Assembly (NCBI GenBank): GCA_016178015.1
Contig: JACOUB010000007.1
Span: 1 to 64,000 of the forward strand
Origin: Methylocystis sp.
GTDB lineage: Bacteria > Pseudomonadota > Alphaproteobacteria > Rhizobiales > Beijerinckiaceae
Length of the DNA stretch: 64,000 bases
Reading direction: 5' to 3'
Part shown: positions 11,511-60,845 of the stretch, piece after piece
How positions within the stretch are numbered: the stretch's first letter is position 1
Layout of the letters: each line of letters begins with the position of its first letter
The notes under the pieces: generated by a model
What the model saw: only the letters and a program-made list of their open reading frames with translations
Told to the model about the DNA's origin: nothing
Databases searched by the model: none
Made by a program: the position numbers and the translations under genes

Positions 11511-11616
11511 CTAGAGTCTTTCCGTGTTTCGTTGAAACACGGAAAAGACTCTATGTTCTTGTTTTGACGCGTTTCCTACGCCAAACCGGCATCCACTTCG
11601 GCGGGAAACGCTCTAA
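11511..11616. repeat. Composite palindromic repeat, copy 1
   Basis: Two modules. The first is the hairpin AGAGTCTTTTCCG... type at 11513-11552 (arms around GTTTCGTTGAAAC). The second, at about 11569-11615, has the core ACCGGCATCCACTTCGGCGG and ends in GCTCTA. Related copies are at 13694-13845 and 45212-45317. The hicB stop lies just outside this copy. Confidence 0.85.
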
Positions 11617-11639: not shown

Positions 11640-11742
11640 TCGTCATGCCCGCGCTTGTCGCGGGCATCCACGCCTTTTTCTTTTGTTAAGCCAAAGACGT
11701 GGATGGCCGGGTCAAGCCCGGCCATGACGTGCTGATGGATCA
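11640..11742. repeat. Dispersed GTCATGCCCGCGC/GCCCGGCCATGAC inverted repeat, copy 1
   Basis: Left part CGTCATGCCCGCGCTTGTCG runs into GCGGGCATCCACG. The right part is CGTGGATGGCCGGGTCAAGC then CCGGCCATGACG. Each part is itself a palindrome and the two are roughly complementary. Other copies are at 35560-35705 and 60690-60845. With the repeat at 11511-11616 it fills most of the 366-bp hicB-GH15 gap, where no gene is visible. Confidence 0.85.
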
Positions 11743-13696: not shown

Positions 13697-13845
13697 AGCG
13701 TTTCCCGCCGAAGTGGATGCCGGTTCGGCGTAGGAAACGCTCTAGAGCTTTTTCATGTTTCGTGGAAACAAGAAAAAGCTCTACGTTTTTGTTTTAACGC
13801 ATTTTCTTCGCCGAACCGGCGTCCACTTCGGCGGAAAATGCTCTA
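13694..13845. repeat. Composite palindromic repeat, copy 2, between convergent GH15 and lpxC genes
   Basis: Order of modules: TAGAGCGTTTCCCGCCGAAG with ATGCCGGTTCGGCG, a central hairpin AGAGCTTTTTC/GAAAAAGCTCT (13744-13782), then an inverted copy of the first module ending GGAAAATGCTCTA. Both outer ends read TAGAGC pointing inward. The left TAG is the stop of the GH15 gene and the right CTA is the stop of lpxC on the opposite strand. It probably serves as a bidirectional terminator. Confidence 0.9.
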
Positions 13846-14817
13846 AAGGCCCAATGAGCGTCCCAGCTCTGCTTGGCGCAGGACGCAAATGTCCGCTGCG
13901 GTGGCGCGCCGCGGCGGCGTCGCGCCGAGGGTCGCGAATGCGGACGGGGTCGCAAGCAGCGCCTCGACCAGCGCCACATTGAGACGATGCCCGCCCCGAT
14001 AGGAGCGGAACGCGCCAACGATCGGCGCGCCGGCCAACGCCAGATCGCCAACCACGTCGAGCATCTTGTGGCGGACGAATTCGTCGGCAAAGCGCAAGCC
14101 TTCCGGGTTGAGCACGCGATTTTCCGCGATGGCGACGGTGTTCTCGAGCGAAGCGCCTTGCGCCAGACCTTCCTTCCACAAGGCTTCGACATCGCCAACG
14201 AAACCGAACGTGCGAGCAGGGGCCAATTCGGCGCAGAATCGCTCGGGCGCCAGCATGATGGCGCGCCGCTGGCGGCCGATCGGGCTATCTGGAAAACAGA
14301 TTTCCACGTCGAGATGGAGGCCGGCAGGCGCCGGACGCAGCTCCGCCCAGGACGCGCCTTGGGCGACCCGCACCGGCGCCACAACCTTCAACAGGCGGCG
14401 CGGCGCGGCCAAACGCGTGATGCCGGCCTCGAGGATGGCGGCGACGAAGGGGCCGGCCGAACCATCCATCGCCGGAACTTCCGGCCCGTCGATCTCAATC
14501 AGCGCATTGTCGACGCCAAGGCCGGACAAGGCCGCCATCACATGCTCGATGGTGGACAGCGAACCGCCGGCCCCCGCGCCGATCTCGACCCGCAACCGGG
14601 TCGACGCAACGTGCGACCAGAGGGCCTCGATCAAACTCGCCGCGCCGACTGGCGCTCCCGAGCGAAGGAAGACTATTCCCGTCCCCGCGCTCGCCGGCGA
14701 CAAGGTCATGCAGGCGGGACGATTGCTATGCGCGCCGACGCCGCGCAGAGTTGCGGCGCCGAGCAGAGTCGTCTGCGCCGGCGCCGTCTGCAGCGTTGCC
14801 GTCTGCCGCGATGTCAT
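13843..14817 (-). CDS. lpxC: UDP-3-O-acyl-N-acetylglucosamine deacetylase
   Basis: Zinc deacetylase and committed step of lipid A synthesis. The 324-residue protein shows the metal ligands H92 (STIEHVMAAL), H250 and D254 (FVRHKMLDVVGD), and catalytic H277 (YRGGHRLN). It closes the division cluster, following ftsZ as in many Proteobacteria, 321 bp downstream of the ftsZ stop. Its stop codon is the terminal TAG of the composite repeat next to it. Confidence 0.95.
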   Translation of the reverse strand: MTSRQTATLQTAPAQTTLLGAATLRGVGAHSNRPACMTLSPASAGTGIVFLRSGAPVGAASLIEALWSHVASTRLRVEIGAGAGGSLSTIEHVMAALSGLGVDNALIEIDGPEVPAMDGSAGPFVAAILEAGITRLAAPRRLLKVVAPVRVAQGASWAELRPAPAGLHLDVEICFPDSPIGRQRRAIMLAPERFCAELAPARTFGFVGDVEALWKEGLAQGASLENTVAIAENRVLNPEGLRFADEFVRHKMLDVVGDLALAGAPIVGAFRSYRGGHRLNVALVEALLATPSAFATLGATPPRRATAADICVLRQAELGRSLGL

Positions 14818-15138
14818 GGGAATGCGCTGTCCCCTCTCATGCGCCGCTGCAACGCTTGATTTCTCCCTCTCCCCGCAAGCGGAGAGGTGATCGTCGCGAA
14901 CCGATCAAGCGTAGCTCGCGTCACAAGACCGCGCCCACCATAAGCGCGCCGGCCGCCGGCCTCCAGTCACGCTTTCCTACAGATTGTTACAATGCGCCAA
15001 CGGCGCTTGCCGCCGCCGTGAACGACAGCGTCGATGCGAGCCTGAAGGCTCGCGGTCCAAGCGACGGACCGCGCGCCTTCAGGCGCGCTTCTGGTCTGCG
15101 GTTCCCGCTTGCTCGACAACGCTCCGAGAGGCGATGTC
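14818..15138. repeat. ftsZ-lpxC intergenic region with palindromic repeats
   Basis: 321 bp without a gene. It holds a short CTCTCCCCGCAAGCGGAGAG hairpin (14871-14890). At 15042-15092 lies a double palindrome, GCGAGCCTGAAGGCTCGC then GGTCC...GGACC then GCGCGCCTTCAGGCGCGC, the same family as the element inside priA (36029-36080). It may separate lpxC expression from ftsZ. Confidence 0.75.
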
Positions 15139-35057: not shown

Positions 35058-35066
35058 CCGATAAAG

Positions 35067-35472
<406 letters not shown>

Positions 35473-35559: not shown

Positions 35560-35705
35560 AGCGCGTCATGGCCGGGCTTGTCCCGGCCATCCACGCCAAG
35601 AAGCTGCGCCACCTCTCCAGAAAAGTGGCGCATTTTCATCTCTTTCGGGAACCTTCCCGCAATGTCCCGGCGTGGATGCCCGCGACAAGCGCGGGCATGA
35701 CGGCT
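35560..35705. repeat. Dispersed GTCATGGCCGGGC/GCGCGGGCATGAC inverted repeat, copy 2
   Basis: Left CGTCATGGCCGGGCTTGTCC then CGGCCATCCACGCC; right CGTGGATGCCCGCGACAAGC then GCGGGCATGACG. It has the same two-part build as 11640-11742 and 60690-60845, with the two halves in swapped order. Between the halves is a small inverted word (GCCACCTCTCC / AAAAGTGGCG). It occupies most of the rnpB-priA gap. Confidence 0.85.
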
Positions 35706-35843: not shown

Positions 35844-38138
35844 ATGAGCGGCGCGGCGGACACGGACGAAAAAAAAGCGCAAATTGCCGAGGTTTTGCTG
35901 CCGGTGGCGGTGGATACGACCTATTCCTATCTTGTCCCGCCGGCGTTGCGGCTCGCGCCCGGCGACAGCGTTAAAGTCCCGCTTGGCGCGCGCGAAGCCT
36001 TCGGCGTCGTCTGGGCGATCGAATCGCCGGACCGCGGGCCTTCAGGCCCGCAACTCGGCGCGCCTGAAGGCGCGCGGTCCGATCTCGCCGGCAATCTCAA
36101 GACCATCGTCGCCCGCTATGACCGCCCGCCGCTGCCCGCCAATTTGCGCGCCTTGGTCGATTGGGTGGCGCGTTGGACGCTGGCCCCGCGCGGCATGGCG
36201 CTGCGCATGGCGACGCGCGCCGCCGAGGGCGCCGGCCCCGACACGCCGCGCCTCGGCTATCGCCTCACAGGCCGCGCGCCGGCGCGCGTCACGCCCGCCC
36301 GCGCCCGCGTCATCGCCGCCGCCGAGGGCGGCTTGACCTTCGCCAAGGCGGCGCTGGCGCAAGCCGCCGGCTGCTCCGCAAGCGTCATCGACGCCCTCGT
36401 GGACGAAGCAACGTTGGAGGCGATCGCGCTGGCGGCGGCGCCGGTCGTCCCGCCGCTCGATCCGCATTTCGACGCGCCGCGGCTCGAGCCGCAACAGCGG
36501 GCCGCCGCCGACGAACTCACACAGGCGGTCGCTGCCGGCGGCTACCATCCCTTTCTGCTTGAGGGCGTCACCGGCGCCGGCAAGACCGAGGTCTATTTCG
36601 AGGCGGTCGCTAGCGCGCTTCGATCCGGCGGGCAGGCGCTGGTCTTGATGCCCGAAATCGCCCTCACGGCGCAGTTTCTGGAGCGCTTCGCGACGCGATT
36701 CGGCGCCAGGCCCGCGGAGTGGCATTCGGGCGTCGCGCTGCGTCGGCGCGCCCGCGTCTGGCGCGGCGTCGCCACCGGCGAAGTCAAGGTCGTCGTCGGG
36801 GCGCGCTCGGCGCTGTTCCTGCCGTTTTCTAAGCTGCGGCTCATCGTCGTCGACGAGGAGCACGAGGGGGCCTACAAGCAAGAGGACGGCGTGGCCTATC
36901 ATGCACGCGATATGGCGGTGGTGCGCGCCCGCATCGAGGATGCGACCATCGTGCTCGCCTCGGCGACGCCCTCGATCGAGACGCGCGTCAACGCCGAACA
37001 GGGCCGCTACGCGCATCTGCGGCTCACCGCGCGCGCCGGGGCGCGCCCCATGCCGGACATCGCCGCGATCGACATGCGCATCGAGGGCGCGGAGCGCGGG
37101 CGCTGGATCGCCCCGCGCCTTGCCGCCGCCATCGGCGCGGCCATGGCGCGCGGCGAACAGGCGCTGTTGTTCCTCAACCGGCGCGGCTATGCGCCCTTGA
37201 CGCTGTGCCGGACGTGCGGGCACCGCTTCCGCTGTAAGAATTGCGACGCCTGGCTGGTCGAGCACCGCTTCCGCAACACGCTCGTTTGCCACCACTGCGG
37301 CCACGTCGAGCGGCGGCCGCGCATCTGCCCGGAATGCGAGAGCGAAGACCAGCTGGTCGCCTGCGGGCCAGGCGTCGAACGACTCGCCGAAGAAACGGCC
37401 AACCTCTTTCCGAACGCCCGCACGCTCGTTTTGTCTTCGGATTTGCTCGGCGGGCCTGCGCGGCTGCGGCGCGAACTGGAAGACATCGCGAACGGCGTTT
37501 TCGACATCGTCATCGGCACGCAGCTCGTCGCCAAGGGCCACAATTTTCCTTTGCTCACGCTGGTCGGCGTGATCGACGCGGATTCGGGGCTTGGCAGCGG
37601 CGACCCGCGCGCCGCGGAACGCACCTTTCAGCTGCTCAATCAAGTCACCGGACGAGCGGGGCGCGGCGATACGCCCGGCCGCGCGCTGCTGCAGACGTGG
37701 CAAAAGGAGCATCCGGTCATCCGCGCCCTGCTCTCCGGCGACGCCGAACAGTTTTATGCGCAGGAGACCAATCTGCGCCGGCGCGCCGGCCTGCCGCCGT
37801 TCGGCCGGCTGGCGGCGCTCATCGTGGCGGCCAAAGACGCCGGCGCCGCGGAAGCTCACGCGCGGGCGCTGGCGCGGGCCGCGCACTGCTTGCCGCCGAC
37901 CGACCGCTATCGCGTGGCTCCAGCGGGAGGACTGCCTGAGCCGGATGAAATCATCGTGCTCGGTCCCGCCGAAGCGCCGATCGCGCTGGTGCGCGGCCGC
38001 CATCGTTTCCGCCTGCTGGTCAAAGCGCCGCGCCGCGCCGACCTGCAAGGATTTCTGCGCGCCATGATCGCGGCGGCGCCCAAGGAACGCGGCGGCGTGC
38101 GGGTGGCGGTGGACGTCGATCCGCAGAGCTTTTGGTGA
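35844..38138 (+). CDS. priA: Primosomal protein N' (replication restart helicase PriA)
   Basis: 3'-5' DNA helicase that reloads the replisome at stalled forks. At 764 residues it has the N-terminal DNA-binding domain (VDTTYSYLVP start), helicase Walker A GVTGAGKTE (241-249), DEEH, a zinc-binding insert beginning at C455 with eight cysteines (CRTCG, CKNC, CHHCG, CPEC) and GRAGRG. A 52-bp palindromic repeat (36029-36080) lies within the reading frame at about residues 62-79, adding a Gly/Pro-rich stretch without breaking the frame. Confidence 0.95.
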   Translation: MSGAADTDEKKAQIAEVLLPVAVDTTYSYLVPPALRLAPGDSVKVPLGAREAFGVVWAIESPDRGPSGPQLGAPEGARSDLAGNLKTIVARYDRPPLPANLRALVDWVARWTLAPRGMALRMATRAAEGAGPDTPRLGYRLTGRAPARVTPARARVIAAAEGGLTFAKAALAQAAGCSASVIDALVDEATLEAIALAAAPVVPPLDPHFDAPRLEPQQRAAADELTQAVAAGGYHPFLLEGVTGAGKTEVYFEAVASALRSGGQALVLMPEIALTAQFLERFATRFGARPAEWHSGVALRRRARVWRGVATGEVKVVVGARSALFLPFSKLRLIVVDEEHEGAYKQEDGVAYHARDMAVVRARIEDATIVLASATPSIETRVNAEQGRYAHLRLTARAGARPMPDIAAIDMRIEGAERGRWIAPRLAAAIGAAMARGEQALLFLNRRGYAPLTLCRTCGHRFRCKNCDAWLVEHRFRNTLVCHHCGHVERRPRICPECESEDQLVACGPGVERLAEETANLFPNARTLVLSSDLLGGPARLRRELEDIANGVFDIVIGTQLVAKGHNFPLLTLVGVIDADSGLGSGDPRAAERTFQLLNQVTGRAGRGDTPGRALLQTWQKEHPVIRALLSGDAEQFYAQETNLRRRAGLPPFGRLAALIVAAKDAGAAEAHARALARAAHCLPPTDRYRVAPAGGLPEPDEIIVLGPAEAPIALVRGRHRFRLLVKAPRRADLQGFLRAMIAAAPKERGGVRVAVDVDPQSFW
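36029..36080. repeat. Palindromic repeat embedded in the priA coding sequence
   Basis: GGACCGCGGGCCTTCAGGCC then CGCAACTCGGCGCGCCTGAA then GGCGCGCGGTCC. Two nested hairpins (GCGGGCCTTCAGGCCCGC and GCGCGCCTGAAGGCGCGC) lie inside outer arms GGACCGC and GCGCGGTCC. It is the same family as the intergenic element at 15042-15092. In frame it encodes roughly PDRGPSGPQLGAPEGARS. Confidence 0.85.
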
Positions 38139-43927: not shown

Positions 43928-44088
43928 GGTGCGGGCCGCGCAAGCCGTGGGACGACCGATCCCGGGAACCTACAACGTAGGTGGGCGCCGTGTGACCAAG
44001 CCCACGGGCGAGGTCGGGGACAGCTCCCTTGGAGATCGATAAGCCCCGGGGAATTAGGTCCGACACGCACCCCGCAGCGCCGCGCCCG
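43928..44088 (-). ncRNA. ssrS: 6S RNA
   Basis: Regulatory RNA that binds RNA polymerase holoenzyme by mimicking an open promoter. On the minus strand the RNA has closing arms GCGGGC and GCCCGC. Conserved blocks are CCTAATTCCCCGGGGCTTAT, AAGGGAGCTGTCCCCGACCT and CCCACCTACGTTGTAGGTTC, like Hyphomicrobiales 6S RNAs as I recall them. A -10-like TACATT sits at 44095-44090. It is followed by fau, as in most Proteobacteria. Ends are estimated. Confidence 0.85.
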
Positions 44089-45166: not shown

Positions 45167-45317
45167 GCAGGTTCTTGTCGAAAAAGTCTGTCAACTTTTT
45201 CGCAACCTGCTCTAGAGCATTTTCCGCCGAAGTGGACGCCGGTTCGGCGAAGAAAATGCGTCAATACAAAATTCTAGAGCTTTTTCATGTTTCCATGAAA
45301 CATGAAAAAGCTCTAGA
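45167..45317. repeat. Composite palindromic repeat, copy 3, with an AGCAGGT hairpin
   Basis: Three modules in a row. The first is the hairpin AGCAGGTT...AACCTGCT with arms GAAAAAGT/ACTTTTTC (45167-45211), as at 6711-6757. The second is AGAGCATTTTCCGCCGAAGT then GGACGCCGGTTCGGCGAAGA then AAATGCG. The third is the hairpin TCTAGAGCTTTTTCATGTTT ... GAAAAAGCTCTAGA (45273-45317). The last CTA is the stop of the methyltransferase gene on the minus strand. Confidence 0.88.
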
Positions 45318-46065
45318 CCGCCGCCTGTTCTATCGCCTCGTCGTAGACCGTTTCGCCCGCTAACAGGGCGCCGCCCCGGGGCAAGCTTGCCCCTCGAATG
45401 CGTTCGATCCGCGTCAGGGTGAACAGACCGAGCGGCGGCAACAGGCGCCGTTCGATCAGCAGCATGTCGACGCGCGCGTCGATCCAGTCGCCGATAACGG
45501 CCCAAGGAAATTTCGGCCGCCAGCCGAGCTTGGTGGCGACCCGGCGGCCAATCCACGATTCTACCGCGGTGAGGGGGCTGTCCTGGGCGCTGACGTGATT
45601 GACCAGGACGATTTCGCCGCCCGGCCGCACGACGCGCGCCAGTTCATCCAGCGTCGCCTGCGGTTGCGCGACCACGGTGAGCATGTAGGGCGCGACGACG
45701 CAGGCGAAGGCGGCGTCGGGAAAAGCCAGCCTTGTCGCATCCATACGGCCGAGACCGACGACATGGGCGAGGCGCTGGCGGGCCACCCGCCCGGCGGCGC
45801 GGCGCAGCATGGGCTCCGACAGATCCGCGCCGAAAACGCGCGTATGGTCCTCGAACATCGGCAGTTCCAGCCCGGTGCCGACGCCGATGTCCAAAATGAG
45901 CCCGTCGGCGCTCGAGGCGACCGAAGCCGCCGCGCGCCGTCCCGGCCGCAACAGCGTAGCGAACAGCAGGTCATAAATCGGCGCCCAGCGGGCGTAAGCC
46001 TCTTCTACGGAGCAATTGTCCAGAGCGCGCTCGCAAGCGCAGCGGGTCTCGCGGGTTTCGCTCAT
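45313..46065 (-). CDS. PmtA-like SAM methyltransferase (probable phosphatidylethanolamine N-methyltransferase)
   Basis: 250 residues with a class I SAM fold: [20 protein letters not shown] opens the domain as in Rhodobacter-type PmtA, followed by [15 protein letters not shown] (SAM loop), [13 protein letters not shown] and [15 protein letters not shown]. PmtA enzymes make phosphatidylcholine by methylating phosphatidylethanolamine. A quinone-pathway or other small-molecule methyltransferase is possible. The ATG overlaps the mnmA stop by 4 bp. The TAG stop belongs to the neighbouring repeat. Confidence 0.72.
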
Positions 46066-60689: not shown

Positions 60690-60845
60690 ATTTACCCGTC
60701 ATGCCCGCGCTTGTCGCGGGCATCCACGCCGATAAGCTCCGACGCGTCCCGAAGCAGAGGTGGGACATTTCAGCTTCCTTACGAAGATTCCCTGTTGCGT
60801 CCCGGCGTGGATGGCCGGGACAAGCCCGGCCATGACGCGCTGAGG
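60690..60845. repeat. Dispersed GTCATGCCCGCGC/GCCCGGCCATGAC inverted repeat, copy 3
   Basis: Left CGTCATGCCCGCGCTTGTCG then CGGGCATCCACGCCGA; right CGTGGATGGCCGGGACAAGC then CCGGCCATGACGCG. Same build as 11640-11742. It lies upstream of the DegP-like gene and may separate it from the divergent hemW. Confidence 0.85.

Follow-up and report, generated by a model that had tools for sequence, protein, structure and literature searches.

The priA gene of the Methylocystis sp. genome studied here contains, in frame, a 52-bp pair of inverted REP palindromes. Our best explanation, to which we give a probability of roughly 0.8, is that this pair is a REPIN-like element that was probably mobilised by a RAYT and has been kept, nearly neutrally, in a permissive loop of PriA. 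The gene lies in the window, by which we mean the whole 64,000-nucleotide stretch of DNA that was analysed. In the mechanism we propose, a RAYT (an HUH enzyme of the Y1 type) would nick and join single-stranded REP hairpins and in this way copy or move them, and one such hairpin pair would have landed in the permissive loop. Selection would have purged most other insertions into genes, and the product in this case would be a complete PriA, lengthened by a disordered loop of some 16 residues. The insert was probably tolerated rather than useful, and a claim of adaptive function for the PriA loop is unsupported by the evidence here. REPINs were reportedly the subject of a 2011 study by Bertels and Rainey.

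The first-pass annotation had reported a 52-bp double palindrome within the priA reading frame, and both its coordinates and its frame proved exact (Table 1). Each of the two 23-nt half-sites matched GGACCGCGNGCCTNNAGGCNCGC with no mismatches, and within the 764-residue open reading frame the codons they occupy encode PDRGPSGPQLGAPEGARS. The stem changes in the priA half-sites (G/C and C/G replacing A/T) are matched on both sides of the stem, and the palindrome is thus intact. The element has the two inverted REPs plus spacer of a REPIN, and when single-stranded the doublet was predicted to form one hairpin. The predicted fold of the 52-mer was -28.2 kcal/mol as DNA (z -7.1) and -45.9 kcal/mol as RNA (z -8.0), with none of 200 shuffles as good in either case.

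Table 1. Features of the priA element, its gene and related repeats (window positions, or contig C1 where marked).
Feature	Position	Strand	Remarks
priA (primosomal protein N', replication-restart helicase)	35844..38138	+	764 aa; PriA domains found
Head-to-head REP pair, REPIN-like	36029..36080	+	priA codons 62-79
REP half-site 1	36029..36051	+	stem variant G/C, exact match
Spacer between half-sites	36052..36057	.	6 nt; unique among 32 surveyed head-to-head pairs
REP half-site 2	36058..36080	-	stem variant C/G, exact match
Second family element in window	15036..15088	.	tail-to-tail pair; intergenic by simple gene model
RAYT frame	C1:40829-41467		exact half-sites, inverted orientation, at either end

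The strength of the predicted RNA fold suggested another reading, in which a hairpin of -46 kcal/mol at codons 62-79 slows ribosomes or alters the stability of the priA mRNA, and hence the level of PriA; effects of REPs on mRNA stability and termination are among those described in PMC6006769. We regard this as decidedly unlikely, since the inverted arms give every pair of the family such a fold, so that the priA copy is in no way exceptional. It also counts against this reading that hairpins within reading frames are unwound by ribosomes.

The protein encoded by priA had six Pfam matches, each over its cut-off, covering the 3' DNA-binding domain, the helicase core, the Zn ribbon and PriA_C. 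A search for PriA over 60 genomes (our own and 59 relatives) identified priA as the sole full-length match in its own genome; the second match there was to the helicase region only (query 217-343, contig C46). An AlphaFold2 model built with 36 sequences had a mean pLDDT of 84.6 and a pTM of 0.82, and its sole internal stretch with pLDDT below 50 was residues 63-79. The insert residues follow the strand formed by residues 50-60 and precede the conserved NLK motif of the 3' DNA-binding domain. The model aligned with a solved PriA structure (8fak_H) over 630 residues (Z 30.4, rmsd 3.9), and although Mfd chains outranked 8fak_H in the same comparison, they did so over about 355 residues. Alignment columns were counted as near-invariant if 34 or more of the 35 relatives kept them. 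Our PriA retains all 14 such columns within its first 123 residues, and of the 202 in the rest of the protein it departs from three and retains 199. Based on the retention of these conserved residues and the position of the insert in a loop, the PriA looks functional despite the insert. The loop of about 16 extra residues is predicted to be disordered, and we infer that it is translated and that PriA tolerates it. The place of the segment in the structure, which the first-pass annotation had proposed to model, is thus a loop of variable length in the 3' DNA-binding domain.

PriA matches were present in 59 of the 60 genomes (none in G032), those of G053 being weak and of helicase type only. Two alignments were examined, the first with 29 relatives' loci (every one of the nine congeners, and 20 other members of the family) and the second with 35 loci, out of 80, in GTDB genomes that included Methylocystis, Methylocella, Methylobacterium, Microvirga, Rhizobium, Bradyrhizobium and others. 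The insert was in none of the 29 relatives and in none of the 35, and in both alignments the flanks on either side aligned. As the segment is missing from every aligned relative, it is an insertion and not ancestral, and the earlier proposal that the repeat family supplied a new segment to the N-terminal 3' DNA-binding domain is borne out. In neither set was the segment found conserved in relatives lacking the repeat family. From these alignments, the insertion would postdate the split of this species lineage from the congeners examined.

The nearest PriA, that of G007, is 81% identical, and its matched stretch is 48 nt shorter (2244 versus 2292 nt). The loop at the insert site varies in length across relatives, so that an exact empty site is undefinable; likewise no target-site duplication could be defined at priA, where the element measures 52 nt and the net gain over the nearest relative 48 nt. 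We attribute the survival of the priA copy to three circumstances, namely that the half-site is free of stops in five of its six frames, which helped in-frame survival, that the net change of 48 nt is a whole number of codons, and that the loop was already variable in length.

That the genome is a draft of 63 contigs (2,812,208 bases in all) brings up the possibility of an assembly or sequencing artefact. We consider this extremely improbable, as the insert lies inside a contig of 135,747 bases and keeps the frame exactly. In addition, its spacer is shared with none of the other surveyed head-to-head pairs and so was not simply copied from another locus, though its combination of stem variants recurs once, at C2:40606. 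That second head-to-head element with two non-A stems was considered as a coding copy and rejected, as it sits between frames; by eye, we take these frames to be the ends of tuf and rpsJ.

The half-site belongs to a large family. Exact half-sites numbered 189 genome-wide, compared with none for the reversed pattern, and all 10 genomes of the genus contained between 13 and 189 exact copies each. In the window four half-sites were found at up to three mismatches; 100 shuffles averaged 0.25, and one of them reached four. Inverted pairs genome-wide comprised 31 head-to-head (30 and 31 by strand) and 53 tail-to-tail. Among 48 surveyed tail-to-tail pairs two spacers recurred, AAGAGCGGCCCT in 12 copies and AAGCGACGCGGAACCC in seven, which indicates that tail-to-tail dimers have also spread as complete units, whereas 30 different spacers were counted in the 32 head-to-head pairs surveyed. 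The companion element that had been placed at 15042-15092 does belong to the same family and is intergenic, but its true limits are those in Table 1 and it is a tail-to-tail pair, the opposite arrangement to that in priA.

The foot of the unit is GGACC, conserved at 98-100% at each position in 138 distinct half-site contexts that were chosen by pattern similarity. Flanking bases are weakly conserved at most: a T precedes GGACC in 52-57% of cases, and an A follows the unit in 52% of head-to-head and 84% of tail-to-tail cases. This foot differs from the unpaired GT[AG]G foot of the GTAG REP superfamily and from that of the CGTC superfamily, which has a CGTC foot and no linked transposase gene, whereas a RAYT is linked to the family here. 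The GGAC-footed family may therefore be a variant outside both published superfamilies as their texts describe them.

Searches of our genome for Y1_Tnp identified two genes. One, on contig C1, encodes a RAYT with the motif NHVH and reached 80 bits with NCBIfam REP_Tyr_transpos, whose cut-off is 80. Copies of the family flank this gene in inverted orientation, which is the arrangement of a REPtron; the stop codon of the gene falls inside the right half-site, and the left half-site would also overlap the frame were translation to begin at the earliest start available. The second gene (contig C25) scored 64.3 bits, below the REP_Tyr_transpos cut-off, and no exact half-site was found within the surrounding 2,085 nt. 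TnpA-REP is described as cleaving and joining REPs using a GT[AG]G guide (PMC8266576, PMC6006769). We infer that the C1 RAYT acts on the GGAC foot, its candidate substrate being single-stranded GGACCGCGAGCCTTCAGGCTCGC.

Homologues of the C1 RAYT were found in eight of 41 genomes, our own included, at E <= 0.001. Four of these matches were strong, those of our own genome, G002 (71%), G016 (57%) and G004 (51%). The G004 homologue is also located between inverted half-sites, and that of G002 has an exact half-site pair on one side only; no half-site was found in 2,025 nt around the G016 homologue, a stretch that begins at a contig end. Within the genus, seven of the 10 genomes had no match at E <= 0.001, the other three being our own, G002 and G004. 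As RAYTs occur in three of the 10 genus genomes and half-sites in all 10, room must be left for RAYT loss or for mobility of some other origin, and this distribution speaks against a simple picture of one RAYT for one family unless RAYTs have been lost or act from elsewhere. Co-evolution of the RAYT with the REP loop was also considered and set aside: the half-sites flanking the G004 RAYT have the loop CC, which is found in just six of the 156 half-sites of that genome.

To place the elements relative to genes, we used a codon model trained on the window and required a coding signal on both flanks. The survey of our own genome comprised 82 elements, representing 157 of the 189 exact half-sites; in the congeners, one G002 pair beside its RAYT and some sites of G005, G004, G001, G003 and G006 were left out. 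Three of our 82 elements were within genes (six under a laxer criterion), compared with 230 of 372 random positions in the same stretches (Fisher p 7e-25); in the window, 254 of 400 random positions scored as genic. The stretches from G008, G002, G007 and G005 were similar, with five of 103 elements passing the lax criterion versus 317 of 415 random positions, and in G009 together with four G004 stretches five of 66 elements were flagged against a control of 198 of 263. By inspection, two of the latter five were internal, two were upstream of a likely start and one was implausible. The many dispersed copies of the family are thus mostly extragenic, as in REPINs.

The first-pass annotation had pointed to the Rickettsia palindromic elements (RPEs), and these counts bear on a reading of the element as an RPE-like, protein-coding palindrome prone to in-frame insertion. 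There is a likeness, in that a palindrome has added a segment to a protein of an alphaproteobacterium (PMC10969869), and the half-site is open in most frames. Moreover, RPE-4 and RPE-6 are counted as CGTC REPs in PMC3733652, and RPEs and REPs are thus related in kind. However, the first-reported RPEs are given in PMC10969869 as about 150 bp long with nearly half in reading frames, whereas the element in priA is 52 nt and its family is rarely genic, is built of 23-nt REPs with a GGAC foot, and shares its genome with a RAYT flanked by identical units. On the basis of the intergenic bias, the foot and the linked RAYT, we rejected an RPE-like origin, which we judge highly improbable; a REP or REPIN with a RAYT in the genome fits better.

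The three genic elements of our genome are those in priA, in an ImuB-like Y-family polymerase (contig C11) and in the tail of a DEAD-box helicase (contig C5). The second is a tail-to-tail pair at C11:33984-34039 (L115/L241), in frame in a variable linker of the polymerase, and this copy was absent from all eight congener homologues aligned; three distant paralogues (L250-L252) were left out of that alignment. The polymerase carries IMS domains, on which the tentative name ImuB partly rests. The helicase copy is a single 28-nt palindrome and a candidate insertion. Of the five elements in G008, G002, G007 and G005, two lie in an Eco57I-type methylase, once in G008 and once in G002, and the others in HypF, a HisA-like protein and a CopA/HMA junction.

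In the methylase, the element is a single in-frame REP (L299, 1515-1537; L323, 1542-1564), and the G008 and G002 genes are 95.5% identical; since the REP is common to both, it has been inherited since their common ancestor or exchanged. In two congeners (L276, 1537-1593; L400, 1476-1535) a tail-to-tail dimer joins the CopA frame to the following HMA (heavy-metal-binding) frame, possibly a gene fusion made by the repeat.

A bias of the insertions toward nucleic-acid enzymes was considered, because four of the seven independent loci in the first five genomes (our own, G008, G002, G007 and G005) were of this type: PriA, the ImuB-like polymerase, the DEAD-box tail and the Eco57I-type methylase, the other three being the HisA-like protein, HypF and the CopA/HMA junction. 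The bias failed a prediction fixed in advance, with neither of the two internal cases in G009 (a CopA/HMA junction and a putative membrane protein) fitting it.

This result also bears on whether the loop is under selection. Lengthening of this loop of the 3'-end binding domain could alter the choice of forks in replication restart, to the advantage of the host or, supposing that its copying passes through single-stranded DNA at forks, of the REPIN. The position of the insert between the strand and the NLK motif and the in-frame copy in the ImuB-like polymerase are consistent with such a role, as are the REPs described in PMC3733652 in uvr genes, DNA polymerase I, recBCD genes, dnaE2 and others. 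Nevertheless, the loop is variable across relatives and modelled as disordered, the enzyme bias failed, and the insert was seen in one species; we therefore consider selection on the loop very unlikely. A broader version, that GGAC-footed, RAYT-linked REPs put loops in both PriA and the ImuB-like polymerase which were kept for altered handling of stalled forks and fed back on REPIN copying, is in our estimation very improbable.

The reading that we prefer, a tolerated REPIN-like insert, has several precedents. As REPINs are described in PMC3116915, the likeness lies in short, conserved REPs that stand inverted around a less conserved spacer, a single hairpin, many copies and a link to a RAYT; here, by contrast, tail-to-tail pairs outnumber head-to-head ones and have two recurring spacers, the foot is GGAC, and the priA copy is intragenic. 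Di Nocera reported intragenic REPs from a range of species in 2013 (PMC3733652), frequently as dimers and frequently in genes for replication and repair, so the type of event is not new. The in-frame REPs of the GTAG and CGTC superfamilies in that paper are similar to ours, with several in replication or repair genes, but the foot here is neither GTAG nor CGTC as its text describes them. The main text does not name priA, the gene list being a supplement. The RAYT between inverted REPs, its HUH motif and the REP near the gene end resemble the REPtron/TnpA-REP systems described in PMC6006769, PMC8266576 and PMC2817692, where, however, typical substrates begin 5' GT[AG]G and other feet are simply called atypical. 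No word starting with GGAC occurs in the main texts of PMC6006769, PMC8266576 or PMC3733652, and among the matches listed no title or abstract opening reports a REP in PriA, a REP or RAYT in Methylocystis, or a palindrome in ImuB.

In the priA case a mobile hairpin has become part of an important single-copy DNA-repair protein, for which the relatives without the insert are natural controls. It opens to test a standing question, namely whether REPs inserted into proteins of replication and repair alter their function or are neutral passengers. The family is, in addition, a sign that methanotroph-type Alphaproteobacteria have RAYT-linked REPs whose foot is not GT[AG]G, and such a foot would be helpful for testing how RAYTs choose their sites.

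Several other features were observed in the window. Repeats of the CGTC...CCACGCC type at 11641-11674, about 35564-35597, 35669-35702 and about 60693-60731 resemble the published CGTC superfamily, and the window thus seems to carry two unrelated REP types. Inverted 111-nt copies that are 92% alike are present at 13738-13848 and 45210-45320, with related pieces near 11542-11616, and represent another repeat family. Two RNA genes, both on the minus strand, were also identified: rnpB (RNase P class A RNA; 35065-35467, 275.7 bits), about 380 nt upstream of priA, and 6S RNA (43930-44083, 56.9 bits).
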